Source: Fictibacillus arsenicus (lineage in GTDB: Bacteria; Bacillota; Bacilli; Bacillales; Fictibacillaceae). Taken from it: 64,000 nt of DNA. Where the stretch lies: the NCBI RefSeq assembly GCF_001642935.1, contig NZ_CP016761.1, positions 2,046,001 through 2,110,000 of the forward strand, read 5' to 3'. The notes beneath the pieces are model-generated. The model made no database searches and was not told where the DNA came from. It saw only the letters and a program-made list of their open reading frames with translations. A program made the position numbers and the translations under genes. Of this stretch, positions 5,843-59,434 are shown piece by piece. Position 1 is the stretch's first letter, and the number at the start of each line of letters is the position of its first letter.

Positions 5843-6703
5843 GTGTATACTACTTTTTATCAAAACGAAAAAATTCAGCAGCCGAATTTCACAGCCGAAG
5901 TTTGTTTTGATTATTATAACGAACGGATCCGAATTGATGACTATCGCGGAAGTGTAAGTTTACTATCCAAGTGGCTCGACGAGATGGCAGCTCAAAATAA
6001 TTTCCATAAAATAATAATCAAATCCCGTCACGATGATCTTTCGAAATGGCTTGAGTCAGGTTTTATATATGAAGGGGAATTTACAGGTTACTTTAACGGT
6101 GCGTCTGCAGTTTCTATGTGCAAGTATTTTAGTAATGAAAGAAGAAACAGCAGTTATTGGATAGAGGAAGACAAAATTATAAAAGACGTATTAATGCTGT
6201 CCCCAACTTCAATATCAAATCCTATGCCGAAAGAATATACATTGCGGATGGCAGATGAACAAGACGCAAAAGAACTTGCAGATTTATATAGTCAAGTATT
6301 TGAGGTATATCCAACTCCAATGGATGACCCGGAATATGTCCTTAAAATAATCAAATCGGGAACTTTGTTCTGTGTGGTAACTTATCAAAAAAGAATTGTA
6401 AGTGCTGCGTCAGCTGATGTTAATGCTGTTTATCATAATGCTGAAATCACTGATTGTGCAACTCTCACGGAACATAGAAAATTCGGTCTTATGAAACATT
6501 TGATTGATCACTTGGAACAAGAACTTTTTAAAAGAAAAATCTATTGTTCCTATTCAATAGCGAGGGCTCTTTCATTTGGTATGAATGCCGTATTTCATCA
6601 AAAAGGGTATGTTTATAAAGGGAGACTGGCTAACAACTGTAAAATATTCGATAAATATGAAGATATGAATATCTGGGTTAAAGATTTATCCGAAAGCATA
6701 TGA
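5843..6703 (+). CDS. ablB: Beta-lysine N6-acetyltransferase
   Basis: A 286-residue GNAT-fold enzyme of the AblB/YodP family, which transfers acetyl from acetyl-CoA to the 6-amino group of L-beta-lysine, giving N6-acetyl-beta-lysine. The C-terminal half holds the acetyltransferase core (TLRMADEQDAKELADLYSQV onward, with a DCATLTEHRKFGLMKHL acetyl-CoA-binding segment); the N-terminal half is the family-specific region. GTG start with AGGAGGG upstream. In many organisms the product is an osmolyte made with KamA. Here the gene lies 2.5 kb before kamA with a regulator in between, and the downstream catabolic genes suggest the acetyl derivative is a pathway intermediate. No sigma-54 site is visible before it. 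Confidence 0.88.
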   Translation: MYTTFYQNEKIQQPNFTAEVCFDYYNERIRIDDYRGSVSLLSKWLDEMAAQNNFHKIIIKSRHDDLSKWLESGFIYEGEFTGYFNGASAVSMCKYFSNERRNSSYWIEEDKIIKDVLMLSPTSISNPMPKEYTLRMADEQDAKELADLYSQVFEVYPTPMDDPEYVLKIIKSGTLFCVVTYQKRIVSAASADVNAVYHNAEITDCATLTEHRKFGLMKHLIDHLEQELFKRKIYCSYSIARALSFGMNAVFHQKGYVYKGRLANNCKIFDKYEDMNIWVKDLSESI

Positions 6704-6761
6704 GTGCCTGAAATTCGGCACATGCTGACAAATAATCGGCATCAAAGGGCGGTGTTGTTTC

Positions 6762-8162
6762 ATGATTTCTGGATCAATGGAAACAGCTGAAACATTAAAT
6801 GCAATTTTAAAGACAATTGATGAAGGTATTCATGTTGTAGATGCAAATGGAATGACTATTTTCTACAATTCGGTAGCTGCCTCTTTGGACGGTTTAACTT
6901 TAGAAGAAGTGCATAACTATCATGTTTTGGATGCCTTTCCCTCACTTACAAAAGAAACGAGTACGTTATTAAAAGTTATACAAACAGGTACTCCTATATA
7001 TAATCAGCATCAAGCTTATACGAATCGAAAAGGAAAACAAATTGATACAGTTAATTCAACTCTGCCGCTTTGGCTGGATGGTGAGTTAATTGGAGCAGTA
7101 GAGGTTGCAAAAGATATATCAAAAGTTAAACAGCTTTCAGATCAGTTGCTCGACTTGCAGGCAAAAATGAAAACATCAAAAAATAAAACCGATAAACAAA
7201 CCTTTTCCACCTATCATTTTCATAATATTTTAAGCTTAGATCCTTTACTTAACGATATTAAAGAACAATGCCGAAAAGCATCTAAAACAAGTTCTCCCAT
7301 AATGATTTATGGTGAAACTGGGACAGGTAAAGAAATGTTTGTACAAGCTATTCATAATGAGTCACCGAGGGGCAATAAACCATTTGTTGTTCAGAACTGT
7401 GCAGCCATTCCTGGACCTTTACTTGAAGGGATATTGTTTGGCACGAAAAAAGGAAGTTTTACAGGTGCAGTTGACAGGCCAGGAGTTTTTGAACTGGCTG
7501 ACGGAGGCACATTATTTTTAGATGAAATAAACTCAATGCCTATTGAGCTGCAGGCTAAACTTCTTCGTGTTATCCAGGAAGGTGTAGTACAGCGTATTGG
7601 AAGTACAGATTTTCGAAAAGTAAATGTAAGAATAATATCAGCCCTTAATGAAGCTCCTGAAATATGTTTATCAAAAGGTGTATTAAGACAGGATTTGTTT
7701 TTCAGGTTAAATGTCGTTTATATTGAGCTTCCGCCATTGCGGGAACGGCACAAAGATATTTCCTATTTATCAATTCATTTCTTAAATGAATTAAATACTG
7801 CTTTTAAAAAGAATGTATTGGGATTAACACAGGAAGCAGAGCAATTATTTAATGAATATAGCTGGCCGGGGAACATTCGAGAGCTGAAACACGCCATCGA
7901 GCATTGTATGAATTTTGCTGATAACAACACATCAATTGGTATAGCTTTACTGCCTAAGCATATAAAAGGAACAAAAAGTTTCAGAACAGAAAATCACATA
8001 CCTCACCCCTCATCAATACCGCCATTGAGGGAAGCCCTTGGAGAATATGAAAAGCAGATCATCCAAATGGCTTTGAAACAAACCTCTGGCAATATTCAGC
8101 AAGCCGCAAAAATATTGCAAGTTCCTAGACAAACACTTCAATATAAAATCAGACAAAAATAA
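6762..8162 (+). CDS. PAS / AAA+ sigma-54-dependent transcriptional activator
   Basis: A 466-residue bacterial enhancer-binding protein of the RocR/BkdR kind. An N-terminal PAS sensor occupies about residues 10-125. The AAA+ domain has Walker A GETGTGKE (184-191), a GSFTGA sigma-54-contact loop (231-236; the usual form is GAFTGA) and Walker B GGTLFLDE (248-255). A C-terminal Fis-type helix-turn-helix (NIQQAAKILQVPRQTLQ) ends the protein. It sits immediately upstream of a perfect -24/-12 promoter that reads into kamA, so it very likely activates the lysine operon in response to a small ligand bound by the PAS domain; the ligand is unknown. A terminator follows the gene. Confidence 0.93.
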   Translation: MISGSMETAETLNAILKTIDEGIHVVDANGMTIFYNSVAASLDGLTLEEVHNYHVLDAFPSLTKETSTLLKVIQTGTPIYNQHQAYTNRKGKQIDTVNSTLPLWLDGELIGAVEVAKDISKVKQLSDQLLDLQAKMKTSKNKTDKQTFSTYHFHNILSLDPLLNDIKEQCRKASKTSSPIMIYGETGTGKEMFVQAIHNESPRGNKPFVVQNCAAIPGPLLEGILFGTKKGSFTGAVDRPGVFELADGGTLFLDEINSMPIELQAKLLRVIQEGVVQRIGSTDFRKVNVRIISALNEAPEICLSKGVLRQDLFFRLNVVYIELPPLRERHKDISYLSIHFLNELNTAFKKNVLGLTQEAEQLFNEYSWPGNIRELKHAIEHCMNFADNNTSIGIALLPKHIKGTKSFRTENHIPHPSSIPPLREALGEYEKQIIQMALKQTSGNIQQAAKILQVPRQTLQYKIRQK

Positions 8163-8186
8163 ACCGCCGATTTTTCGGCGGTTTTT
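8161..8186 (+). terminator. Rho-independent terminator after the activator gene
   Basis: AAACCGCCGA pairs with TCGGCGGTTT, followed by T residues. It overlaps the stop codon of the activator gene and isolates it from kamA, which therefore depends on its own promoter. Confidence 0.9.
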
Positions 8187-8276
8187 CTATATCAGTAATT
8201 TTGGATTTAGACCCGAAAACAGCCTAACGTGCATAAACTATACCGTGATTTCATTATTTAGAAATTTCAGATTAAT

Positions 8277-8292
8277 TGGCACGAATCTTGCA
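8277..8292 (+). promoter_or_regulatory. Sigma-54 (-24/-12) promoter of the kamA operon
   Basis: TGGCACGAATCTTGCA matches the sigma-54 consensus TGGCAC-N5-TTGCW in full. GG (8278-8279) and GC (8290-8291) have the obligatory 10-base spacing. Transcription would start near 8303, before the kamA ribosome binding site (8315-8322). The neighbouring enhancer-binding protein gene supports the call. Confidence 0.95.
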
Positions 8293-8329
8293 TGATTTAT
8301 TTGATGTAGAAATAAAGGAGGTCACTTAT

Positions 8330-9757
8330 ATGCCGGTAGTTGATGGATTGTTCAAACCTAAGAAACATTGGAAAGAGTATGAGCTTTGGAAGGATGTAAC
8401 TGAGGATCAATGGAATGATTGGTTATGGCAGCTTACTAATACAATCAGAAATTTAAACGATTTAAGGAAAGTAGTTAACTTGACACCTGAAGAAGAAGAA
8501 GGCGTAAAGATTTCTACTATGACAATACCTTTGAACATCACACCTTATTATGCATGGCTGATGGATCAAGATGATGCTAGATGTCCTATTCGAATGCAGT
8601 CTGTACCTATTGGAAAAGAAATTTTAAAGACGAAATATGATTTAGAAGATCCGCTGCATGAGGATGAAGATTCTCCTGTACCTGGACTTACTCATCGTTA
8701 TCCGGACAGAGTTCTTTTCTTGGTAACAAATCAATGTTCTATGTATTGCCGTTATTGTACGAGAAGAAGATTCTCAGGACAGATTGGCATGGGTGTTCCT
8801 AAAAAGCAGCTCGATGCGGCCATTAATTATATAAGAAATAATCCACAAGTGAGAGACTGCTTAATCTCCGGCGGTGACGGATTATTAATCAACGACAATA
8901 TTCTTGAATATATTTTAAAGAACCTTAGAGAAATACCACATCTGGAAATTATCCGTATCGGGACGAGAGCGCCTGTAGTATTTCCGCAAAGAATTACAGA
9001 AAACCTGTGTAATATCCTGAAGAAATATCACCCAGTGTGGCTTAACACTCACTTCAATACTTCTTTAGAGATAACAGAGGAATCAAAGAGAGCTTGTGAA
9101 ATGCTTGCGAATGCAGGTGTTCCTGTTGGGAATCAATCAGTCATTCTAGCTGGAATTAATGACAGTGTACCGATCATGAAGAAATTAATGCATGATCTTG
9201 TAAAAATACGAGTTAGACCATATTACATCTATCAGTGTGATCTATCAGAAGGAATCGGTCATTTCAGGGCTCCAGTATCAAAAGGTCTTGAAATTATTGA
9301 AGGATTAAGAGGCCATACTTCAGGCTATGCTGTTCCAACATTCGTTGTTGACGCTCCTGGAGGCGGAGGTAAAATCGCTGTTCAGCCAAATTATTTAATC
9401 TCGCAATCTCCTGAAAAAGTTGTACTCCGAAACTTTGAAGGTGTGATTACTTCCTATCCTGAACCGCAAAACTATCAAGCTGGGAGAGCGGATGCATATT
9501 TTAATGAAATCATGGGGACGAATCACATCAAACCGGCTATCGGTGTATCTGCATTAATGCGTGATGAAGCTTTCAACTTGGTTCCACAAGGCTTAAAACG
9601 TTTAGAGCGAAGAGAGGATTATGGCACAAACCCTGAACATAGTTCATTAAAAGATAAACGGGATAAACGTGATGAATTAAAAGAGAAAAAATTTAAATCT
9701 GAGCAAGAGAAAAACGCAGGAGTTTCTGGTACGCCTGAAGAACAAAAGAATGCATAA
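8330..9757 (+). CDS. kamA: L-lysine 2,3-aminomutase
   Basis: Radical-SAM, PLP-dependent enzyme that converts L-lysine to L-beta-lysine; 475 residues. The 4Fe-4S/SAM motif is Cys136-x3-Cys140-x2-Cys143, and the PLP lysine is Lys348 in the GGGGK motif. Both are offset by the same 11 residues from the Clostridium SB4 enzyme numbering (125/129/132 and 337). Very similar to B. subtilis YodO/KamA. The start is ATG 8330 with AAAGGAGG 7 bases upstream; a longer TTG frame from 8276 would begin inside the sigma-54 promoter and is rejected. First gene of a seven-gene operon. The highly charged C-terminal tail is typical of Bacillus homologues. Confidence 0.97.
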   Translation: MPVVDGLFKPKKHWKEYELWKDVTEDQWNDWLWQLTNTIRNLNDLRKVVNLTPEEEEGVKISTMTIPLNITPYYAWLMDQDDARCPIRMQSVPIGKEILKTKYDLEDPLHEDEDSPVPGLTHRYPDRVLFLVTNQCSMYCRYCTRRRFSGQIGMGVPKKQLDAAINYIRNNPQVRDCLISGGDGLLINDNILEYILKNLREIPHLEIIRIGTRAPVVFPQRITENLCNILKKYHPVWLNTHFNTSLEITEESKRACEMLANAGVPVGNQSVILAGINDSVPIMKKLMHDLVKIRVRPYYIYQCDLSEGIGHFRAPVSKGLEIIEGLRGHTSGYAVPTFVVDAPGGGGKIAVQPNYLISQSPEKVVLRNFEGVITSYPEPQNYQAGRADAYFNEIMGTNHIKPAIGVSALMRDEAFNLVPQGLKRLERREDYGTNPEHSSLKDKRDKRDELKEKKFKSEQEKNAGVSGTPEEQKNA

Positions 9758-9771
9758 GAATGGAGGATAAC

Positions 9772-10044
9772 ATGAAGTGTTTATGGTGTGAAAATGAAAA
9801 TGCAGAACAGACTGCCCGCACAGGTTATTGGGAACTTCCAGATGGCACAAGAGCAGTCGAAATAACTATAATACCTTCAGTTTCCTGCCCGTCTTGCGGC
9901 ATGGAGTATCAAGAAGACCATATTGTAGATGAAATTGAAGATCAGCTAATGCTCATTGATACAAAAAAGATAGATTCTTCTATTTCCTTTACTGACCTGA
10001 TGAGCATTCCAAGGTTTTTAAAGAAAAATTATTTTAAGCTATAA
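9772..10044 (+). CDS. yokU: YokU family small zinc-finger protein
   Basis: A 90-residue protein with two CxxC pairs (MKCLWCENEN and VSCPSCGMEY), an N-terminal zinc finger as in MqsA-type antitoxins. In B. subtilis yokU also lies beside kamA. The start at 9772 is supported by GGAGG 5 bases upstream; the in-frame ATG at 9760 overlaps that site. Role unknown: there is no HTH domain after the finger as in true MqsA and no toxin partner, so an antitoxin function is unlikely. Its place inside a catabolic operon suggests an accessory or regulatory job. Confidence 0.8.
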   Translation: MKCLWCENENAEQTARTGYWELPDGTRAVEITIIPSVSCPSCGMEYQEDHIVDEIEDQLMLIDTKKIDSSISFTDLMSIPRFLKKNYFKL

Positions 10045-10057
10045 CAACACATAGAGG

Positions 10058-10087
10058 AAGGAAATGTCTTCAATTTGGCATTTCCTT
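10058..10087 (+). promoter_or_regulatory. Intercistronic hairpin between yokU and yodT
   Basis: AAGGAAATG and CATTTCCTT form a perfect 9-bp stem with a 12-base loop, followed only by TTC. The weak T-run suggests partial termination or an RNA-stability/processing hairpin rather than a full stop in the operon. Confidence 0.5.
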
Positions 10088-10116
10088 TTCAACCTCACGA
10101 GGAAGGAGCCTTTTTT

Positions 10117-11484
10117 ATGAGAAAATCACATCTCATTAAACCGGTTCTAGGAAATGATTATCCTGTAATCAGTCATGGTAAAGGAATCTACCTATATGAC
10201 AAAGAAGGAAAACAGTACATTGACGGATCATCAGGAGCTATTACTGCCAATATAGGGCATGGTGTACAAGAAATTGCTGAAGCGTTGTGGAATCAGGCTA
10301 AACACGTATCCTTTGTATATCGATCACAGTTTACAAGTGATGCTGCTGAAATGCTGGCTGAAAAACTAGCTGAATATGCACCTGATGAATTAAAATCCGT
10401 TTTCTTTGTTAATAGTGGTTCTGAGGCAACTGAAACTGCATTAAAGATCGCTATTCAATATTTTCAAGAGCAAGGGGTTTTTACGAAAACAAAAGTTCTA
10501 TCGAGATGGACCAGCTACCATGGCATTACATTAGGAGCTTTATCTATGTCCGGACATCAGCTAAGAAGACAGCGTTTCAATTCGCTTTTAGAAGATTTCC
10601 CGGTAGCTCCAGCACCATATTGCTATCAATGTCCATTAAAGGATTCATATCCAGGATGCGGTGTCAGATGTGCTGATGAACTGGAAAACATCGTTCAAGC
10701 GATAGGTGCAGAACAGATAGCTGCTTTTATAGTTGAACCAGTAATCGGCGCTTCAGGTGGAGCTATTGTTCCCCCAGATGAATATTATTCAAAAATTAGA
10801 GCGATTTGCGATAAGTATGACATTTTAATGATTGCTGATGAAGTAATGACTGGAATGGGCAGGACTGGAAAAATGTTTGCGATGGAACACTGGGGAGTCA
10901 TACCTGATATTATTGCACTCGGAAAAGGCATGAGTGCAGGTTATACACCTATGGCGGCAACAATTGTTTCAGACAAAATCATGAATACAATTGAGTCAGG
11001 AAGCAAAGTCGTGATGAGCGGCCATACCTTTAGTGCCAATCCTCAGTCAGCAGCAGCTTGTCTTGCCGTACTTCATTATATTGAAAGAAATAATCTCCAA
11101 GAAAATGCAGCTTTAATGGGTGATTATCTTCAAAACCATCTACAGCGTTTGCAATGGAAATATTCATTGATTGGTGATGTTCGAGGAAAAGGACTACTAT
11201 GCGGACTTGAACTAATTAAAGATCCTATGACTAGAGAACCTTTTGAACTATCAAACAAGATTACAGACCGGCTATTATCGATTTGTTTTGAAAAAGGGCT
11301 GCTTGTTTATCCGGCTGTTGGCGGTGTAACAGGATTTTCAGGTGATTCTATCCTTATATCTCCGCCACTGACGGTAACAAAAGAACAAATTAATGACATT
11401 ATAGATATTCTTGACCAATCAATAGGCGAACTTACCAATCAATTAATCTCTGAAGGTTTATATATTACGGAAGCCACGAGTTGA
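10117..11484 (+). CDS. yodT: Class III PLP aminotransferase, YodT-like (probable N-acetyl-beta-lysine transaminase)
   Basis: A 455-residue fold-type I, class III omega-aminotransferase. The PLP lysine is Lys270 in LGKGMSAGYTP, with a preceding DEVMTGMGRTGK motif. A cysteine-rich insert (YCYQCPLKDSYPGCGVRC) is a family trait. It resembles B. subtilis YodT. By position it would remove the 3-amino group of N6-acetyl-beta-lysine to give 6-acetamido-3-oxohexanoate; this substrate is inferred from pathway logic. The start is ATG 10117 with GGAAGGAG upstream. The stop is 14 bases before yodS. Confidence 0.88.
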   Translation: MRKSHLIKPVLGNDYPVISHGKGIYLYDKEGKQYIDGSSGAITANIGHGVQEIAEALWNQAKHVSFVYRSQFTSDAAEMLAEKLAEYAPDELKSVFFVNSGSEATETALKIAIQYFQEQGVFTKTKVLSRWTSYHGITLGALSMSGHQLRRQRFNSLLEDFPVAPAPYCYQCPLKDSYPGCGVRCADELENIVQAIGAEQIAAFIVEPVIGASGGAIVPPDEYYSKIRAICDKYDILMIADEVMTGMGRTGKMFAMEHWGVIPDIIALGKGMSAGYTPMAATIVSDKIMNTIESGSKVVMSGHTFSANPQSAAACLAVLHYIERNNLQENAALMGDYLQNHLQRLQWKYSLIGDVRGKGLLCGLELIKDPMTREPFELSNKITDRLLSICFEKGLLVYPAVGGVTGFSGDSILISPPLTVTKEQINDIIDILDQSIGELTNQLISEGLYITEATS

Positions 11485-11498
11485 AAGAGGTGTGGGAG

Positions 11499-12227
11499 AT
11501 GGCACAAGTAAATAAACAAATATCATTAGAAAGTGCATCTCAATATTTTTTTAACGGAATGTCACTGATGGTAGGTGGATTTGGAGGGGTAGGTGCTCCT
11601 CCTTCTTTAGTGAATCTCATTCTGGAAAAGAATATTCAAGATATTTTTCTTATAAGCAATGATACTGGGTTTCCATGGATCGGACCCGGCAAGCTTATTA
11701 CTGAAAAACGAGTTAAAAAGCTGATCGTATCTCATATCGGTTCAAATCCAGAAGCCGGAAAACAGATGCAGGACGGGTCTTTGGAAGTGGAGTTTGTCCC
11801 TCAAGGAACGCTCGCAGAAAAAATCAGAGCAGGGGGTATGGGACTAGGCGGAATTTTAGTAGATGTAGGTTTAGGTACTGTTGTTGAAGCAAATAAACAA
11901 AAAGTTCATGTGAACAGCAAAGAGTATATGATAGAGACCGCTTTAACTGCAGACGTATCCATTATCTATGCGAAAAAAGCTGATTTGTATGGAAATCTTG
12001 TATATGACAAAAGTGCGCGAAATACAAATCCTCTAGTAGCGACAGCAGGACAAATCACGATCGCTGAGGTTGAAGAAATTGTGCCGACCGGTTCAATAAA
12101 TCCCGAAGAAATCATTACTCCTGGAGTATTTGTTGATTACATTATTCAAAGTAAAGGGGTGGACTGGAAATGGGTTTGGGAATTGAAACAAGGCACAGGA
12201 TCGCAAGAAGGGCAGCACTCGAAATAA
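11499..12227 (+). CDS. yodS: CoA-transferase subunit A, YodS-like
   Basis: A 242-residue class I (AtoD/ScoA-like) CoA-transferase alpha subunit. The N-terminal GGFGGVGAPPSLV motif is the typical CoA/acyl-binding signature. It pairs with the next gene to form a heteromeric 3-oxoacid CoA-transferase, here probably acting on 6-acetamido-3-oxohexanoate (inference). The start is ATG 11499 (MAQVNK); an upstream TTG at 11481 has no ribosome binding site. The last 58 bases overlap yodR in another frame, giving a C-terminal extension of about 20 residues past the conserved PGVFVDYIIQ end. Confidence 0.9.
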   Translation: MAQVNKQISLESASQYFFNGMSLMVGGFGGVGAPPSLVNLILEKNIQDIFLISNDTGFPWIGPGKLITEKRVKKLIVSHIGSNPEAGKQMQDGSLEVEFVPQGTLAEKIRAGGMGLGGILVDVGLGTVVEANKQKVHVNSKEYMIETALTADVSIIYAKKADLYGNLVYDKSARNTNPLVATAGQITIAEVEEIVPTGSINPEEIITPGVFVDYIIQSKGVDWKWVWELKQGTGSQEGQHSK

Positions 12228-12832
12228 AAGATGGCATGACAGTTAATCTGGGCATTGGCATTCCAACACTTGTTGCAGATTATATACCAAAAGAATTACA
12301 TATTATGCTCCACACTGAGAATGGCATTTTAGGGATGGGTGGTTCCCCTGCAGAAGGTAAGGAAGATGGAAATTTATCAAATGCAGGAGGATATCCAGTT
12401 ACGATTCAGCCAGGTGCTTCTTATTTTGACAGTGCAACTGCTTTCGGAATTATCCGCAAAGGTTTGCTTGATGTAACGATATTAGGTGCACTTGAAGTCA
12501 GCGAGAAAGGTGATATCGCAAATTGGATCGTTCCCGGGAAGCGTGTACCGGGCATGGGCGGTGCGATTGATCTTGCTCAAAAAGCGAAAAAAGTAATCAT
12601 TCTTATGAACCATACAGACAAATTCGGAAATCCTAAAATTGTTAAGAATTGTTCTCTCCCGCTTACCGTAAGGGAAGGAGCGCATATGATTATTACTGAA
12701 AAAGCTGTTTTTCATTGTGAATACGGCCAATTATTCCTCAGAGAAGTTATGAATCCATATACCGTTGAAGATGTTATCAATACGACGGGTGCTGCCGTTA
12801 TCGTTGATGAAAAAGTTTCTGTATTTCAATAA
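12170..12832 (+). CDS. yodR: CoA-transferase subunit B, YodR-like
   Basis: A 220-residue class I CoA-transferase beta subunit. It carries the catalytic glutamate at Glu50 in the HTENGILGMG motif, which forms the glutamyl-CoA thioester, and the GLGxxTP-like NLGIGIPTLV segment. The ATG is preceded by AAGGGGTGG inside the yodS coding sequence, so the 58-base overlap is real and implies coupled synthesis of the two subunits. Substrate as for yodS. Confidence 0.92.
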   Translation: MGLGIETRHRIARRAALEIKDGMTVNLGIGIPTLVADYIPKELHIMLHTENGILGMGGSPAEGKEDGNLSNAGGYPVTIQPGASYFDSATAFGIIRKGLLDVTILGALEVSEKGDIANWIVPGKRVPGMGGAIDLAQKAKKVIILMNHTDKFGNPKIVKNCSLPLTVREGAHMIITEKAVFHCEYGQLFLREVMNPYTVEDVINTTGAAVIVDEKVSVFQ

Positions 12833-12853
12833 AAGTGCTGAGGGAGGACAGTT

Positions 12854-14113
12854 ATGCTTCTAAAAGATAAACTTTCGAATTGGCTTTTAAAAGAACAAGA
12901 TAATGCGATACGTTTTTTGCAGGAAACAGTTCAAGAGGCAAGTACAACAGGCAATGAAGCAAGCGTTCAAAATATGATTGCGAAAAAACTGAATGAAATG
13001 GGACTCGAGGTAGATATGTGGCACCCTGATGGGGAAGAGCTGGCAAAACATCCATACTTCTGTGCGAGCCGAACTAACTTTAGCAGCAGTCCTAATGTAG
13101 TAGGTATTTGGCGAGGAAAAGGAAATGGACACTCGCTTGTACTAAACGGCCATATTGATGTTGTTCCCGAAGGCGATTTGAATCAATGGGATGATCATCC
13201 ATACAGCGGAAAGATTATAGATGGAAAACTATATGGACGTGGTTCCACTGACATGAAGGGGGGGAACTTGTCACTTCTTCTTGCGATTCAGGCGTTAAAA
13301 GAAACAGGAACAACTTTAGATGGAGACTTGTTTTTTCATAGTGTTATAGAAGAAGAGAGCGGCGGTGCAGGTACACTGGCAGCTGTTCTTAGAGGATATA
13401 CAGCAGACGCTGCTATCATCCCAGAACCAACAAACATGAAAATATTCCCTGCTCAGCAAGGATCCATGTGGTTTAAGCTAACCATTAATGGAAAGGCAGC
13501 ACACGGAGGAACCCGCTATGAAGGGGTCAGTGCAATTGAAAAAACTGCTGTAGTCTTAGAAGCAGTCAAGGCTCTTGAAACGAAACGCAACCAAAGGATA
13601 ACGGATCCATTATATAGGGATATACCTATCCCAGTTCCTATCAATATAGGAAAAATCTCAGGAGGAAATTGGCCTTCTTCCGTTCCTGATACAGTTCATT
13701 TAGAAGGCAGGATTGGTGTAGCACCTCATGAAACATTAGAAGAAGTAAAACGTGAGTTAGGAGACTATCTTTCTAGCATTCAGGATGAATGGCTATTGGA
13801 GCATCCTGTTTCTGTAGAATGGTTTGGAGCACAATGGCTGCCTGGTTCTATTGATACAGATCATCCTCTCATGAATACTCTTATCAAAAACTATGAACAT
13901 GTTAAAAAAGAAAGACCGATCATTGAAGCTTCTCCATGGGGAACAGACGGCGGTCTGCTTTCACAAGCAGGAAATACACCCTCAATTGTCTTCGGGCCAG
14001 GTGTTACTGCCGTTGCTCATTACCCAAATGAATACATTGAAATCTCAAAGATTATTGAAGCAGCAGAAATTATTGCTTTAACGATTTATGACTGGTGCGG
14101 GGGGAGTAACTAA
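12854..14113 (+). CDS. yodQ: M20-family deacylase, YodQ-like (ArgE/DapE type)
   Basis: A 419-residue zinc-dependent M20 hydrolase. Metal-site motifs are NGHIDVVP (His100, Asp102), GRGSTDMKGG (Asp133), the catalytic IEEESGG and a C-terminal TAVAHYPNE histidine. ArgE and related members remove acyl groups from amino-acid nitrogen. In this operon the logical substrate is 4-acetamidobutyrate (or its precursor), giving free 4-aminobutyrate; this is inference. The stop overlaps the next start by one base (TAATG). Confidence 0.9.
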   Translation: MLLKDKLSNWLLKEQDNAIRFLQETVQEASTTGNEASVQNMIAKKLNEMGLEVDMWHPDGEELAKHPYFCASRTNFSSSPNVVGIWRGKGNGHSLVLNGHIDVVPEGDLNQWDDHPYSGKIIDGKLYGRGSTDMKGGNLSLLLAIQALKETGTTLDGDLFFHSVIEEESGGAGTLAAVLRGYTADAAIIPEPTNMKIFPAQQGSMWFKLTINGKAAHGGTRYEGVSAIEKTAVVLEAVKALETKRNQRITDPLYRDIPIPVPINIGKISGGNWPSSVPDTVHLEGRIGVAPHETLEEVKRELGDYLSSIQDEWLLEHPVSVEWFGAQWLPGSIDTDHPLMNTLIKNYEHVKKERPIIEASPWGTDGGLLSQAGNTPSIVFGPGVTAVAHYPNEYIEISKIIEAAEIIALTIYDWCGGSN

Positions 14114-15420
14114 TGAAGAAATCAGAAGGATTATTAAAGCGAAAAGAGCTGAATGTACCAAGAGGACCCTTTAATACGGTATTGAGCTTTCTGGATCATG
14201 CAAAAGGCAGTACGATGACCGATGTCGACGGGAAGGAATACATTGATTTTGCCGGTGCTATCGGCACGCTTAATGTCGGCCATTGTCCGCCAAGAGTCGT
14301 TGAAGCATTAAAAAATCAAATTGATAAATACATTCATCCTTGTTTTCATGTCATGATGTATGAACCATATATTCAGCTGGCTGAAAAATTAAATGAGATC
14401 ACCCCAGGAATTCATCATAAAAAAACATTCTTCCTGAACAGCGGAGCAGAGGCAGTAGAGAACGCAGTTAAAATAGCAAGGAAATATACGGGAAGAAAAG
14501 CGATCATTTCCTTTGAGCGCGGTTTTCATGGGAGGACACTTCTTGCCATGTCATTAACTAGCAAAGTAAAACCATATAAGTTTGAATTTGGACCTTTTGC
14601 TCCTGAGACTTACAAGATGCCATATCCTTATTATTATAGAGATGATCGCAATACGGAGGAAACGGATGCAGCCATTTTAAGCAAATTTGAGGATTTCTTT
14701 TTAGGCGAAGTTCCTCCAGAAGAAATCGCAGCTATCATTTTTGAACCGGTTCAAGGCGAAGGCGGTTTTGTTGTTCCATCCAAAACTTTCGTGAAAGGTC
14801 TGCGCCAGATCTGTGACAAGTATAATATTTTGTTAATCGCAGATGAAATACAAACCGGTTTCGGACGTACAGGTAAAATGTTTGCAATGGAGCACTTTGA
14901 TGTGGTTCCAGACTTGATGACAATGTCTAAATCAATTGCTGCCGGCCTTCCTATCTCTGCAGTAACCGGAAGAGCGGAAATCATGGATGCGCCTGCCCCA
15001 GGAGAAATCGGCGGAACATATGGCGGCAGTCCCCTGGGCTGCGTCGCAGCATTAGAAGTAATTGCAATGATTGAAGAAGAACAGCTATTAACTAAAGCCA
15101 ATAAAATAGGGGAAATCATATTAGATACTTTTAACAAATGGAAAGATCAATACGAGTTTATCGGAGACGTTCGAGGTATCGGAGCGATGTGCGCACTCGA
15201 GATCGTCAAAGATAAAAAAACGAAAGCACCTGATCCAGATAAAGCAAAGAAAATCATAGCTTTGTGCAACTTAAACGGTGTTGCGATCATGGGTGCAGGA
15301 TTATATAGCAATGTGATTCGGATTCTCTCGCCGCTTGTTATTTCAGAAGAACAGCTTCTAAATGGACTTAATATTATTGAAGAGCAATTAAATCATATAA
15401 GTGAGACAGTATCTATGTAA
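14113..15420 (+). CDS. Class III aminotransferase, 4-aminobutyrate aminotransferase-like
   Basis: A 435-residue omega-aminotransferase of the GabT group: IGTLNVGHCPPRV, FLNSGAEAVENAVKIARKYT, IIFEPVQGEGGF, DEIQTGFGRTGK and PLP Lys273 in MSKSIAAGLPISAV are all present. It would transfer the amino group of 4-aminobutyrate to 2-oxoglutarate, forming succinate semialdehyde. Being the last gene of the operon, translationally coupled to the deacylase, it fits the final step of the proposed route. It replaces the position where B. subtilis has no such gene in its yod operon, as far as I recall. The family also includes ornithine and acetylornithine enzymes. Confidence 0.88.
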   Translation: MKKSEGLLKRKELNVPRGPFNTVLSFLDHAKGSTMTDVDGKEYIDFAGAIGTLNVGHCPPRVVEALKNQIDKYIHPCFHVMMYEPYIQLAEKLNEITPGIHHKKTFFLNSGAEAVENAVKIARKYTGRKAIISFERGFHGRTLLAMSLTSKVKPYKFEFGPFAPETYKMPYPYYYRDDRNTEETDAAILSKFEDFFLGEVPPEEIAAIIFEPVQGEGGFVVPSKTFVKGLRQICDKYNILLIADEIQTGFGRTGKMFAMEHFDVVPDLMTMSKSIAAGLPISAVTGRAEIMDAPAPGEIGGTYGGSPLGCVAALEVIAMIEEEQLLTKANKIGEIILDTFNKWKDQYEFIGDVRGIGAMCALEIVKDKKTKAPDPDKAKKIIALCNLNGVAIMGAGLYSNVIRILSPLVISEEQLLNGLNIIEEQLNHISETVSM

Positions 15421-15427
15421 TTAGTAA

Positions 15428-15462
15428 AACCTTGCTGAATCATTGAATCAGCAAGGTTTTTT
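15428..15462 (+). terminator. Operon terminator
   Basis: AACCTTGCTGA pairs with TCAGCAAGGTT, followed by a run of T. It closes the kamA operon. Confidence 0.93.
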
Positions 15463-15551: not shown

Positions 15552-16991
15552 TTGAATAAATGGAAAAAAGTAATCATCGGAACTTTTCTTTTTGCAGGGT
15601 TTGTTATTTTTACGCAGTATGAGAAAAATGCAGAGCCTGCCTGGAAAGTTAATGGAAAAGAGTTTACAGTCGTAAAGACTTTTAATGAAGGGATAGAAAG
15701 AGAATACCTTAAGTTTGAAGAATTAGAAGTTGTAAATAAGTATGGATTTCTGCAAGAAGCTAACAAATCCATTCAATTGCGTGATGAGCTACGAACATTG
15801 AAATTCGAAAAGATCTGGAATATCGAAGGACGATTATACATGTTGTACAGTGTTGATCTGAAGGAACGCGATAAGGATGAAAGAGATATTCCGCGCCTTA
15901 CAGTAAAGAAAATAAAGCTTTCTACAAAGGATGGAAAAGATGCCGTATTTTCTGCAAGTGAAAATACAGGTTTTCCTGGAAAAAGAGACGAAGGTTTTGT
16001 TTATAAACACAGGCTATACAGATCGATGATGGTGATACCCATGATTGTCAATCATGACCAAATAGATTGGAATTTATTAATTCAGGCTAACAGATTTGAA
16101 TTACAAGATGTAGAAATTTCTACTTTAAAAGGCTCTAAATCAATAAAAAATATTCCATTTAAAGTTTCTTCAGAAAATTTATATACAAAAGTTCTTGAAT
16201 CTTCCCCAATAAATAAAACTTTTACATACGGGAATAACAAAATCGCTGAAATTAAATCGTATGACGTTCTGCTTTATGACCGACGCTTATCATTAGATAT
16301 ATCGAATGAAGATGAAGATCTTGTTGCTTTTTCAGGGTATACCAATAATCAAAAAGACCGGTTTACATGGGACATTATTGGGACTGAAGAAAAAGGCTAT
16401 TACCTTCCTTCCGTAGAAGATTATTTAGAAAATGACGATGGTGAGAAGACGATTACTTTTCATTCCTCCATGCATAAAAATGCTAAATCTTACTCTTGGA
16501 CAATTCATAAAGAAGATATTAACCGTGTAAACAAAAATATGGAGCAAACGTTTATAAAGAATGAGGAGATCTTAAATCAAAACAAAATGAAAGTCATTTA
16601 CGAAGGATTTTCAAAATTTAATGGTGAGCCAGCCATTCAGTTTAGTGTTCTTTCTAAAAGTATTAGTAACCGATTAAGATTAAATCCTGAGAGTATTTAT
16701 GGCAGAAATGAGATTCCTGAAGAATATAAGCGCCTTTTCCACCAAAATCTCTTAACGATAACAAATGAATCGAATGAACAGTTCAGTAACTATGAAATGC
16801 ACATGGATGAAACTGAAACAAAAACAACATATTATATCAATTTTTTCAAAGAAGATAGAAACGGAAGTACTAGAGATTACGTACCTATTCCAGAAGAGCG
16901 TTTAACAATTACTTTGTCAGATTTAGTGTACTCAAAACCTTTGCCCACAGAGGTTACGATAAAGTATAAAGTACCTAAATTGAAGAAATAA
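15552..16991 (+). CDS. Membrane-anchored extracytoplasmic protein of unknown function, paralogue 1
   Basis: A 479-residue protein not recognised by family. One hydrophobic segment (about residues 6-21, VIIGTFLFAGFVIFTQ) is followed by an all-soluble, charged, beta-rich-looking remainder, so it is probably anchored in the membrane with the bulk outside. TTG start with GAGGGA 8 bases upstream; no good ATG alternative. It is clearly paralogous to the next gene: both share QYEKNAEPAWKVN after the membrane segment, a WN-LY-LYSVD-KERDKDE block and an YKHRLYRSMM block. The two are probably co-transcribed. Confidence 0.82.
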   Translation: MNKWKKVIIGTFLFAGFVIFTQYEKNAEPAWKVNGKEFTVVKTFNEGIEREYLKFEELEVVNKYGFLQEANKSIQLRDELRTLKFEKIWNIEGRLYMLYSVDLKERDKDERDIPRLTVKKIKLSTKDGKDAVFSASENTGFPGKRDEGFVYKHRLYRSMMVIPMIVNHDQIDWNLLIQANRFELQDVEISTLKGSKSIKNIPFKVSSENLYTKVLESSPINKTFTYGNNKIAEIKSYDVLLYDRRLSLDISNEDEDLVAFSGYTNNQKDRFTWDIIGTEEKGYYLPSVEDYLENDDGEKTITFHSSMHKNAKSYSWTIHKEDINRVNKNMEQTFIKNEEILNQNKMKVIYEGFSKFNGEPAIQFSVLSKSISNRLRLNPESIYGRNEIPEEYKRLFHQNLLTITNESNEQFSNYEMHMDETETKTTYYINFFKEDRNGSTRDYVPIPEERLTITLSDLVYSKPLPTEVTIKYKVPKLKK

Positions 16992-17024
16992 GCATATTTC
17001 ATAACATATAAAGGGGAATCAGCT

Positions 17025-18467
17025 TTGAACAGCAAATTGGGAAAAATTATTATAGGAGCTGTTTTATTAATCGGCTTTGTGATCTATACACAATATGAAA
17101 AAAACGCTGAGCCAGCTTGGAAAGTAAACACGGAAAATTTTACTGTTCTAGATAGCTGGGAAGAGTTAATGAATTTTGAAAAAATGAAATATAATGATTT
17201 AAAATTTGTTGATCATTTTAACCTTTTTAAAGACAGTAGGGTTTCAGTTCCGATTACCAGTGAACATCGAACGTTAAGAATCGAGAAAACGTGGAATTAT
17301 GGCTTTCAGCTATATGTACTTTACAGTGTGGATATTAAAGAAAGAGACAAAGATGAAGGGGACATTCCTAGGCTGAATGTTGAAAGGATAAAGCTAACTT
17401 CAGAACAAAATAAAGAATTCATAGGCACTGCAGAATTATATCCAGGAGAAACCTCATCGGAAGGATATGTTTTTAAACATCGCTTATACCGTTCAATGAT
17501 GATTCATCCCGAATTTAATAATGCCGTAAATTCACAGGAAGATTGGGAAGAAGTGATGAAAAGTAACCGATTCGAGCTATATGACATCACTATGAGTTCG
17601 AAGAAAGGAGTAACAAATTTAAAGCCGATTGCTTTCCAGGTTGAACCAGCTCAGATAAGGGGTATTCCAAAAGCTATAGCATCAATCCCTGTTAACCAAA
17701 CATTGCACGTTAACAATGGAGATGAAATAACATTGAAAAGTATAGAATTTTTTCAGATTGGCTCGAGAATTATGTTAGATAAGAAAGTTGACAAAGATCT
17801 AGTTTCCTTAATTGGCGAAATTAATGTTAATGACCGAAAATTACCTATCGAATATGAGATTTCAAGTGTTCATGAAGCAGAGAATTATATTCAGACCTAC
17901 TCTTTAATGAGTGAATTGTTAAATTCAGCTCCATCTGAAGAAGGATTTTTTTCTATAACACATTCCGTTCATCGTACCAATAAAGAATATTCATTTTCTG
18001 TTGTTAAGGCTGATATTGAAAAGTATAACGCCAATCAATCGAATGGTTTAATAAAAAATAAAGTAATTGTAAATGAAAAAGATGTAAATATCGTATATGA
18101 AGGCTTAGAATGGGATGCAGCAAACAATCAAGGAGGAATAAAGTTCTCCATCAATTATCCTGACAACTCAGATAATGTAGAAGAAGCATTTATGTTTCCA
18201 CGTCCCAGCTATCACTTTGGTGATGGAAATGATGAGGATCGTTATGTAAGAAATCTGATTTCGGTCAAAGATTCTTCAGGGAAGCAATTGGAGAATTATG
18301 ATATAACGCAAATATACCAAGATGATAAACCTTCATTTATCATTTATTTTTATAACGGTTTACCCGTTGAAGATTTGACTATTACGCTTTCACGATTAAC
18401 ACATTATGAACCGCTAATAAATGCAGTTTCAATTCCATTAATACTTCCTGAACCAAATAAGAAATAA
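17025..18467 (+). CDS. Membrane-anchored extracytoplasmic protein of unknown function, paralogue 2
   Basis: A 480-residue tandem paralogue of the preceding gene with the same architecture: one N-terminal membrane helix (IIIGAVLLIGFVIYTQ), then QYEKNAEPAWKVN and a large outside domain. TTG start with AAAGGGGA upstream, 33 bases after the neighbour's stop. The N-terminal 120 residues are much more alike than the middle parts, consistent with an old duplication and divergence. Function unknown; secreted sensor, envelope or spore-surface roles are all possible. Confidence 0.82.
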   Translation: MNSKLGKIIIGAVLLIGFVIYTQYEKNAEPAWKVNTENFTVLDSWEELMNFEKMKYNDLKFVDHFNLFKDSRVSVPITSEHRTLRIEKTWNYGFQLYVLYSVDIKERDKDEGDIPRLNVERIKLTSEQNKEFIGTAELYPGETSSEGYVFKHRLYRSMMIHPEFNNAVNSQEDWEEVMKSNRFELYDITMSSKKGVTNLKPIAFQVEPAQIRGIPKAIASIPVNQTLHVNNGDEITLKSIEFFQIGSRIMLDKKVDKDLVSLIGEINVNDRKLPIEYEISSVHEAENYIQTYSLMSELLNSAPSEEGFFSITHSVHRTNKEYSFSVVKADIEKYNANQSNGLIKNKVIVNEKDVNIVYEGLEWDAANNQGGIKFSINYPDNSDNVEEAFMFPRPSYHFGDGNDEDRYVRNLISVKDSSGKQLENYDITQIYQDDKPSFIIYFYNGLPVEDLTITLSRLTHYEPLINAVSIPLILPEPNKK

Positions 18468-19036: not shown

Positions 19037-19040
19037 AAAA

Positions 19041-19269
19041 ATCTGCGATGTTAGTGGCTTTCCAATGTCTTTAACCTATGTGCTAAAGACGGGAATCCAA
19101 CATGATCTGTCAGACAGTCATGCCTTGCATTCGACTTGGAAGGCTGTAACGGCAGCTGCGGATACCCACCTGAGAGATCAGGTTCCAAAGGCATATAAAG
19201 TCACGGCAGAGCGGATTTTACTTAACAATTAACAAGCGTATTTTACTTCACTGTAAAATGCGCTTTTTT
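19041..19269 (+). ncRNA. Putative structured non-coding RNA (about 225 nt), class not identified
   Basis: A self-contained cassette: promoter, folded body, terminator. Bases 19038-19046 pair with 19211-19219 as a 9-bp closing stem with one G-U. Inside are GTCTTTA/TAAAGAC (19067-19090), CATGA/TCATG with a nested CTGT/ACAG (19101-19122), GCTG/CAGC (19143-19156), and ACCTGA-GAGA-TCAGGT (19168-19183), a GNRA-capped hairpin. TTGGAA (19136) can pair with TTCCAA (19183). The end is a strong terminator, GCGTATTTTAC / GTAAAATGCGC plus six T (19236-19269). No ORF with a ribosome binding site lies within. It could be 6S RNA, another stand-alone RNA, or a leader acting on ypcP 26 bases downstream; I cannot match it to a known class by eye. 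Confidence 0.6.
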
Positions 19270-59187: not shown

Positions 59188-59209
59188 ATGAAAAACTAAA
59201 GAACAGAAC

Positions 59210-59434
59210 ATTTATGAAAAAGAGAGTACTCTGTTTAGTTTGTTATAGAGAGCCGGGAGCGGTGGAAGCCTGGCACAACTGTCAGAAGAAGCGCACTTTG
59301 GAAATGTTTGCTTGAAAATTCCGTAGGGCAAACCGGGACATCCCGTTAACAGATCAAGCGGCCTTTTAAAGGCAACAAGAGTGGTACCGCGGTATAATCC
59401 GTCTCTTCTATTATTAGAAGAGGCGGTTTTTTAT
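59210..59434 (+). promoter_or_regulatory. T-box leader (arginine) before argS
   Basis: The T-box sequence AACAAGAGTGGTACCGCGG is at 59374-59392. The stem I region begins about 59210, with AGAGAGCCGGGAGCGG. A candidate arginine specifier CGC is at 59292-59294, not proven by folding. The terminator CCGTCTCTTCTA / TAGAAGAGGCGG plus six T is at 59399-59432, alternative to the T-box antiterminator. Uncharged tRNA-Arg binding would prevent termination and switch on argS. Confidence 0.93.

Follow-up and report, generated by a model that had tools for sequence, protein, structure and literature searches.

Gene content of the kamA-yod locus

The stretch analyzed here (hereafter, the window; 64,000 nucleotides, G000:C1:2046001-2110000) is part of the 4.06-Mb single-contig genome of Fictibacillus arsenicus and contains a cluster of nine genes centered on kamA and the yod genes. 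All nine are located on the + strand, in the order ablB, kamR, kamA, yokU, yodT, yodS, yodR, yodQ, and a gene for 4-aminobutyrate (GABA) aminotransferase. Protein families were assigned by comparing NCBIfam bit scores with curated cut-offs, and every protein of the cluster except KamR scored above one. The initial annotation of this DNA, made from the sequence alone, had listed the same genes, and all were recovered with the coordinates, strand, and order it gave.

The first gene, ablB (yodP; 5843..6703), encodes a predicted beta-lysine N6-acetyltransferase (TIGR03827 equivalog, 294 bits, cut-off 205) and is followed by kamR (6762..8162), encoding a sigma54 enhancer-binding activator that consists of PAS, AAA+, and Fis-type helix-turn-helix domains (Pfam PAS_4, Sigma54_activat, and HTH_8). 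The kamA gene (8330..9757) encodes a lysine 2,3-aminomutase of the AblA type (TIGR03820, 633 bits, cut-off 525), and yokU (9760..10044) encodes a zinc-finger protein (TIGR03829, 132 bits, cut-off 91). The next four genes encode a class III aminotransferase, a proposed N6-acetyl-beta-lysine transaminase (yodT, 10117..11484; NF005375, 718 bits, cut-off 535); subunits A and B of a 3-oxoacid coenzyme A (CoA)-transferase (yodS, 11499..12227; TIGR02429, 196 bits, cut-off 129; and yodR, 12170..12832; TIGR02428, 291 bits, cut-off 244); and an M20 metallo-deacylase, a proposed 4-acetamidobutyrate deacetylase (yodQ, 12854..14113; NF005373, 698 bits, cut-off 428). The terminal gene (14113..15420) encodes the GABA aminotransferase (TIGR00700, 599 bits, cut-off 507), which falls just under the narrower NF005376 model (670 bits, cut-off 676). 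Two of the family names are uninformative, NF005375 being an “aspartate aminotransferase family protein” and NF005373 a “peptidase”; because these names state no function, the roles of yodT and yodQ were drawn from context. YokU carries a Pfam label of putative antitoxin and has no known pathway role.

The most likely start of kamA is ATG 8330 rather than TTG 8276, because the latter falls within the -24/-12 promoter described below. For yodT and yodS, ATG 10117 and ATG 11499 are the most likely starts (TTG 10075 and 11481, respectively, in the list of open reading frames, ORFs). The yodQ and aminotransferase genes overlap in the sequence TAATG (14111-14115), which makes the translational coupling proposed in the initial annotation plausible.

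Several of the proteins carry catalytic motifs of their families. KamA retains the radical-SAM (S-adenosylmethionine) cysteines and, in an alignment with 2A5H, residues D293, D330, and K337, which we take to be the ligands of the lysine side chain (the aspartates) and the lysine that binds pyridoxal phosphate (PLP). The terminal aminotransferase conserves E211 and R141 of 1SF2 (Escherichia coli GABA aminotransferase), presumably functional residues of this enzyme. YodT carries the PLP motif ALGKG, and the solved chains closest to it are likewise class III transaminases; YodR contains ENGxxG, the motif around the glutamate of CoA-transferases; and YodQ carries the M20 metal-site motifs GHID, DMKG, EEESG, and HYPNE, the nearest solved structure being a putative acetylornithine deacetylase. 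Production of beta-lysine for modification of EF-P was set aside given that KamA exceeds the cut-off for AblA but not that for EpmB; EpmA was not searched for.

For comparison, we used 79 loci from a YodT search and four more from additional genomes of Thermoleophilia, the class to which L088 belongs, 83 in total (individual loci and genomes are denoted by L and G numbers). The best 16 YodT matches in other genomes all came from Fictibacillus, with identity up to 96%. Of 49 kamA-bearing loci, 48 have yokU no more than 600 bases from kamA.

A sigma54 promoter upstream of kamA and two likely transcription units

A sequence with the -24/-12 pattern of sigma54 promoters, TTGGCACGAATCTTGCA (8275..8291, +), precedes kamA. 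The pattern TTGGCAY-N5-TTGCW had 15 matches in the genome, compared with 2 for a reversed control pattern. Among the related loci, such a site was found before kamA in all 50 that have kamR no more than 600 bases upstream of kamA. Three loci with a larger gap were omitted from this count; in these, the motif precedes kamA (L089), precedes ablB (L061), or was not found (L086). The sigma54-contact loop of KamR in the window, as read from the translation, is GSFTGA, a variant of GAFTGA. In a hand tally of 55 KamR ORFs with more than 40% identity, GAFTGA occurred in 10, the GSFTG form in 22, and GSYTGA in 23. An alignment of the Fictibacillus kamR-kamA intergenic regions gave no clear usable dyad as a KamR binding site, and a scan for sigma70 promoters was uninformative (28 matches, 29.1 expected).

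An intrinsic terminator lies behind kamR (8161..8184, +; -16.8 kcal/mol, z -6.4), and a terminator-like hairpin, absent from the terminator-scan list, follows the aminotransferase gene (15426..15460, +; -18.5 kcal/mol, z -5.2). Given the strength of both structures, the genes likely form two transcription units, ablB-kamR and kamA-to-aminotransferase, rather than one, which corrects the initial description of one regulated locus. Another hairpin, also not in the terminator-scan list and with a weak U tract, is predicted between yokU and yodT (10058..10087, +; z -3.5 for 10044-10120) and possibly represents an attenuator or a processing site. By eye, other Fictibacillus seem to have a comparable repeat between these genes, in which the letters of the stem seem to vary with a hairpin still possible.

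Proposed pathway

We consider it quite probable that the locus encodes CoA-dependent lysine catabolism via N6-acetylated beta-lysine. Under this scheme, KamA would convert lysine to beta-lysine by shifting the 2-amino group to C3, and AblB would acetylate the epsilon amino group, giving N6-acetyl-beta-lysine. Acetylation would shield the terminal amine, such that the 3-oxo acid could not cyclise and only the 3-amino group would be transaminated. YodT would accordingly act on N6-acetyl-beta-lysine to produce 6-acetamido-3-oxohexanoate, which YodSR would activate as a CoA ester, most economically with CoA taken from 4-acetamidobutyryl-CoA. A thiolase, in this strain one of nine encoded elsewhere, would free acetyl-CoA, leaving 4-acetamidobutyryl-CoA. 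YodQ would deacetylate free 4-acetamidobutyrate to GABA, the terminal aminotransferase would convert GABA to succinate semialdehyde, and a distantly encoded succinate semialdehyde dehydrogenase (SSADH) would oxidise the latter. Recycling of CoA by YodSR would free the cycle of any need for ATP, which could explain a cluster without a thioesterase or an acyl-CoA synthetase. KamR and sigma54, presumably in response to an inducer, would switch on the kamA-to-aminotransferase unit, with ablB and kamR constituting the separate upstream unit. The initial annotation had mapped the genes onto the same steps, and this map is supported by the lysine-binding aspartates conserved in KamA and, as described below, by the thiolase encoded within the operon in relatives, the co-occurrence of YodT with KamA and AblB, the presence of a single GABA aminotransferase over the cut-off, and an aldehyde dehydrogenase gene in Cytobacillus.

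Co-occurrence of KamA, AblB, and YodT

In a set of 199 genomes drawn from the order, AblB (E ≤1e-40) was detected in 113, YodT in 105, and KamA in 108 (both at E ≤1e-150). All three proteins are encoded in 102 genomes and none in 79; the partial sets are AblB alone (9), KamA alone (5), YodT alone (2), KamA and AblB without YodT (1), and AblB and YodT without KamA (1). Thus, YodT accompanies the KamA-AblB pair in 102 of 103 genomes. The Fisher value for the association of AblB with YodT, 7e-42, overstates independence because the genomes are related; by genus, YodT was present in 48 of 96. Both genomes used as controls, Methanosarcina acetivorans and Bacteroides ihuae, encode KamA and AblB but no YodT at the E limits used, indicating that the two synthesis enzymes can occur by themselves.

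The thiolase step

Of the 83 loci, 73 hold yodT, yodR, and yodQ, and these fall into three layouts: yodT-S-R-Q (43 loci), the same with an aminotransferase gene downstream (16), and yodT-S-R-thiolase-Q (14). In two of the 16 aminotransferase loci (L059 and L064), the gene is more distant, with yokU and another gene in between, and the count omits a copy truncated at a contig end (L052) and a fragment (L037).

Nine thiolases of the Fictibacillus genome exceed the family cut-off, and all are encoded outside the window, in agreement with the earlier remark that the gene for thiolysis is missing at the locus and that a thiolase from elsewhere would be needed. The 14 thiolase loci, with the gene between yodR and yodQ, come from Bacillaceae (nine, from the Peribacillus group and from two strains of Bacillus) and Thermoleophilia (five). 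In the three Bacillaceae cases scanned, the inserted protein scored 457-471 bits against TIGR01930 (cut-off 241), and the others match by sequence. The thiolase of the Thermoleophilia locus L088 is 60-64% identical to the Bacillaceae locus thiolases, the other four from Thermoleophilia show 63-64% identity to that of L053, and the nine Fictibacillus thiolases show no more than 50% identity to any of four locus-thiolase queries. Presence of a thiolase at the same place in two phyla fits a prediction of the CoA-transferase-plus-thiolase reading.

In the phylogenetic tree of YodT, the thiolase loci comprise a Thermoleophilia clade and one Bacillaceae clade, the latter including three Peribacillus-group loci without a thiolase; the deep forks are not resolved. 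The tree was built with L094 and L096 as the outgroup and left out L086 (fragmented, 340 amino acids) and seven of the nine loci with YodT identity below 50% (L090 and L092-L099); all nine and L086 were excluded from the tree-linked counts. Most simply, the majority of bacilli would have lost the thiolase gene and use a general thiolase in its place; alternatively, the operon may have been transferred.

Two candidates for the missing thiolase were considered. The thiolase in L002, which is nearest to the locus type, shows only 47-50% identity and is not claimed as an orthologue; its neighbors are a CoA-transferase B subunit (the A subunit being assigned by position) and a TIGR00366 gene. The thiolase in L008 lies in a region that contains sigma54 sites and a gene for an activator, but its neighbors, as judged by eye, are an acyl-CoA dehydrogenase, a CaiB-like protein, and CoA ligases, and a link to lysine was dropped.

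GABA aminotransferase and downstream oxidation

The terminal aminotransferase is the only protein in the genome over the TIGR00700 cut-off. The next best, in L127 (G000:C1:1340000-1349500), reaches 371 bits, below the cut-off, and was rejected as a GABA aminotransferase; its best fit is PRK08117. This class III aminotransferase is accompanied by a sigma54 site, a PAS-type sigma54 activator of its own, and, by eye, a putative sodium-solute symporter. An SSADH over the cut-off (657 bits, cut-off 646) is encoded at genome position 1566069, away from the locus. The initial annotation had taken the last aminotransferase as strengthening the catabolic interpretation; its uniqueness in the genome agrees with this, but, judging from its distribution among the loci, the gene is a local addition. 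In Pseudalkalibacillus (L037, 13991-14269), a fragment of about 92 amino acids, 68% identical to the terminal aminotransferase, lies behind yodQ, as if the gene were being lost, and the same genome has one GABA aminotransferase elsewhere.

Variable couplings of the yod genes in relatives

In Cytobacillus (L179), yodT, yodS, yodR, yodQ, a GABA aminotransferase gene, an aldehyde dehydrogenase gene, ablB, kamR, kamA, and yokU form one run on one strand, and the terminal enzyme is 68% identical to that of the window. The same genome contains a second yod copy (L070) without kamA, in which yodTSRQ and the genes for GABA aminotransferase and aldehyde dehydrogenase lie beside an amino acid ABC (ATP-binding cassette) importer and an ablB with 36% identity to that of the window; judging from its position, this ablB is the one that exceeds the AblB cut-off at 279 bits. 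The L070 copy has a PucR-family regulator, and L179 has kamR and kamA, so that the two form a natural pair for comparing the use of beta-lysine and of lysine. In L052, whose genome lay outside the genome searches for KamA and AblB and the GABA aminotransferase test, an importer of the same type as in L070 adjoins ablB. Close matches to the aldehyde dehydrogenase were found in L048, L058, L070, and L179, with only 30-34% identity in five more loci; the best model for these proteins is lactaldehyde dehydrogenase, below its cut-off.

Genes for LysP-type permeases were detected in 19 of the 83 loci (at least 65% identity to the L039 gene), along with two weak matches; against NF008094 (cut-off 735), the L039 protein scored 740 bits and that of L059 726. 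PucR-family regulator genes are present in 18 of the 83 loci, divergent to yodT in several. Among 199 Thermoleophilia genomes, YodT was found in five, including G003, in which yodTSR-thiolase-yodQ is accompanied by an ABC importer. No kamA or ablB lies beside the yod genes in L053 and L072, but both are encoded elsewhere in those genomes. These varied couplings suggest that the breakdown genes are a movable module that was joined to KamA in different ways.

In L054 (14441-18425), genes for a spore germination permease, a GerXA-like protein, and Ger(x)C are located between yodQ and ablB, and a GerXA-like gene match was noted in 8 of the 83 loci (including L054 and L087); any connection between germination and lysine or beta-lysine is speculative.

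Comparison with known systems

Degradation of acetylated beta-lysine reportedly occurs in a Pseudomonas, the enzymes of which were studied in the 1970s-80s. Its intermediates are the same, with one enzyme family per step, and it ends in GABA and succinate semialdehyde. It differs in starting from beta-lysine, which in the window KamA would make from lysine; in addition, the window cluster includes no thiolase gene. Deacylation in Pseudomonas is said to act on the CoA ester, which may or may not hold for the window. To our knowledge, the acetyl-beta-lysine transaminase and 4-acetamidobutyrate deacetylase activities are known without sequences. Searches of the open-licence literature for the pathway intermediates and the Yod names found no paper, and none of the matches listed, judged by titles and the starts of abstracts, assigned yodTSRQ to this route.

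The kam locus of Bacillus thuringiensis HD73 resembles that of the window in that kamA lies beside a gene for a PAS-type sigma54 activator and has a -24/-12 promoter (PMC4428206). In HD73, the sigma54 unit is listed as comprising kamA and a single further gene (HD73_2540-2541), and kamA is described as forming two operons with six upstream genes (PMC4428206), whereas in the window the promoter faces kamA, yokU, yodTSRQ, and the GABA aminotransferase gene together. The abl operon of methanogens shares the first two enzymes, KamA (AblA) and AblB; at 1e-150, M. acetivorans has no YodT, and in the window the product of the two enzymes would instead be passed on to the enzymes of a breakdown operon. 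Clostridial lysine fermentation (kamA, kamDE, kdd, kce, kal/kat; PMC3149608) likewise starts with lysine 2,3-aminomutase and involves CoA-aided cleavage of a 3-oxo acid. By contrast, the nine genes of the cluster include no second aminomutase, Kdd, or Kce, which were not searched for in the rest of the genome, and acetylation and a CoA-transferase would be used instead. For Bacillus subtilis, the role of KamA was called undetermined in 2019, and YodT was speculatively placed in biotin metabolism (PMC6522883).

The chemistry of acetylated beta-lysine in Pseudomonas and the control of kamA by KamR and sigma54 in B. thuringiensis were thus already known. What is likely new is a sigma54 unit in which the KamA step is joined to the breakdown module and whose last gene encodes the only GABA aminotransferase of the genome over the cut-off.

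Alternative explanations

Several observations weigh against lysine catabolism as proposed above. B. thuringiensis HD73, in which kamA is under the control of KamR and sigma54, was reportedly unable to use lysine as a nitrogen source (PMC4428206); Bacillus cereus CECT 148 was reported to accumulate N-acetyl-beta-lysine (cited in PMC4685198); and KamA of B. subtilis is described as a sporulation-only product (PMC6522883). At the locus itself, ablB sits outside the sigma54 unit, and it is possible that the hairpin between yokU and yodT divides expression by partial termination. Among the relatives, 59 of the 73 loci have no thiolase gene, and the aldehyde dehydrogenases score only 383-387 bits with the SSADH model, below the cut-off of 646. 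Furthermore, 12 of the 24 yod genomes tested, including seven Fictibacillus without the terminal gene, encode no GABA aminotransferase over the cut-off. Given this and the presence of the terminal gene in only 16 of the 73 loci, this enzyme is not the general endpoint, and in those 12 genomes GABA would be exported or taken by another transaminase. Finally, in G003 no AblB match was found, and the best KamA match, at 230 bits, is below the AblA cut-off of 525, implying that the yod module does not require either protein; of the five Thermoleophilia genomes with YodT, the search for these genes covered G003 and not the other four.

One alternative is osmolyte turnover, whereby KamA and AblB would make N6-acetyl-beta-lysine under osmotic stress and YodTSRQ would remove it afterwards. 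Methanogens make this osmolyte with the same two genes (PMC1224877), the KamA/AblB pair of Pelobacter was interpreted in the same way (PMC3543383), and both the accumulation in CECT 148 and the two control genomes devoid of YodT are compatible with such a role. We nevertheless consider it improbable: the pair is nearly always accompanied by YodT in the order; a single sigma54 promoter precedes kamA together with the breakdown genes and does not serve ablB, which argues that synthesis and breakdown are not opposed; and the permease genes, GABA aminotransferase, and aldehyde dehydrogenase at the loci would suit use as a nutrient. A part in the sporulation programme, with the mother cell recycling lysine or gaining GABA or succinate rather than growing on it, has somewhat better prospects, although we still regard it as unlikely. 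The kamA and yodT genes of B. subtilis are listed under SigE control (PMC6522883), the B. thuringiensis kamA promoter is served first by sigma54 and later by sigmaK, with slightly reduced sporulation of the kamR mutant (PMC4428206), and matches to spore germination receptor genes occur among the loci. On the other side, the promoter sequence in the window is of the sigma54 type (SigE and SigK sites were not searched for), and the proposed chemistry is left uncontested, as this explanation overlaps the catabolic one and differs from it in timing only. It also appears doubtful, about to the same degree as osmolyte turnover, that the substrate of YodTSR(thiolase)Q is a different N-acylated beta-amino acid, with KamA and AblB only borrowed in Bacillaceae. 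The G003 operon, with its importer, and the yod loci L053 and L072, with no kamA or ablB adjoining, would favor another substrate; yet the L053 and L072 genomes have KamA and AblB elsewhere, and import of N6-acetyl-beta-lysine would call for the same gene set.

With lysine catabolism retained as the preferred interpretation for the window, we tentatively suggest, as a possibility that is less than even, a wider scenario in which YodTSR-thiolase-YodQ is an old portable module for the use of N6-acetyl-beta-lysine. Some Thermoleophilia, with an ABC importer and PucR and, in the one genome searched, without AblB and AblA, would scavenge the osmolyte released by methanogens or other microbes. Bacilli with an importer and AblB (L052 and L070) would take up free beta-lysine, a capacity that Cytobacillus would keep beside its KamA-coupled locus L179. 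Fictibacillus-like bacilli would have joined the module to KamA to degrade lysine, recycling CoA via YodSR.

Other features in the window

Directly 3' of the operon (15552-18467) lie two tandem, similar ORFs of about 480 amino acids, each with an N-terminal hydrophobic segment. A 6S RNA was identified at 19037-19221 (+; RF00013, 66 bits), and an overlapping call of a 102-amino acid ORF is probably spurious. A T-box leader is located at 59205-59409 (RF00230, 126 bits).

Implications

The gene set proposes a concrete role for KamA and provides candidate genes for the acetyl-beta-lysine transaminase and 4-acetamidobutyrate deacetylase. If the proposal is correct, a lysine degradation route of spore-forming bacteria would have been hidden by annotations like “aspartate aminotransferase family protein” and “peptidase,” and the presence of kamA and ablB in Bacillales would not by default denote osmolyte synthesis.

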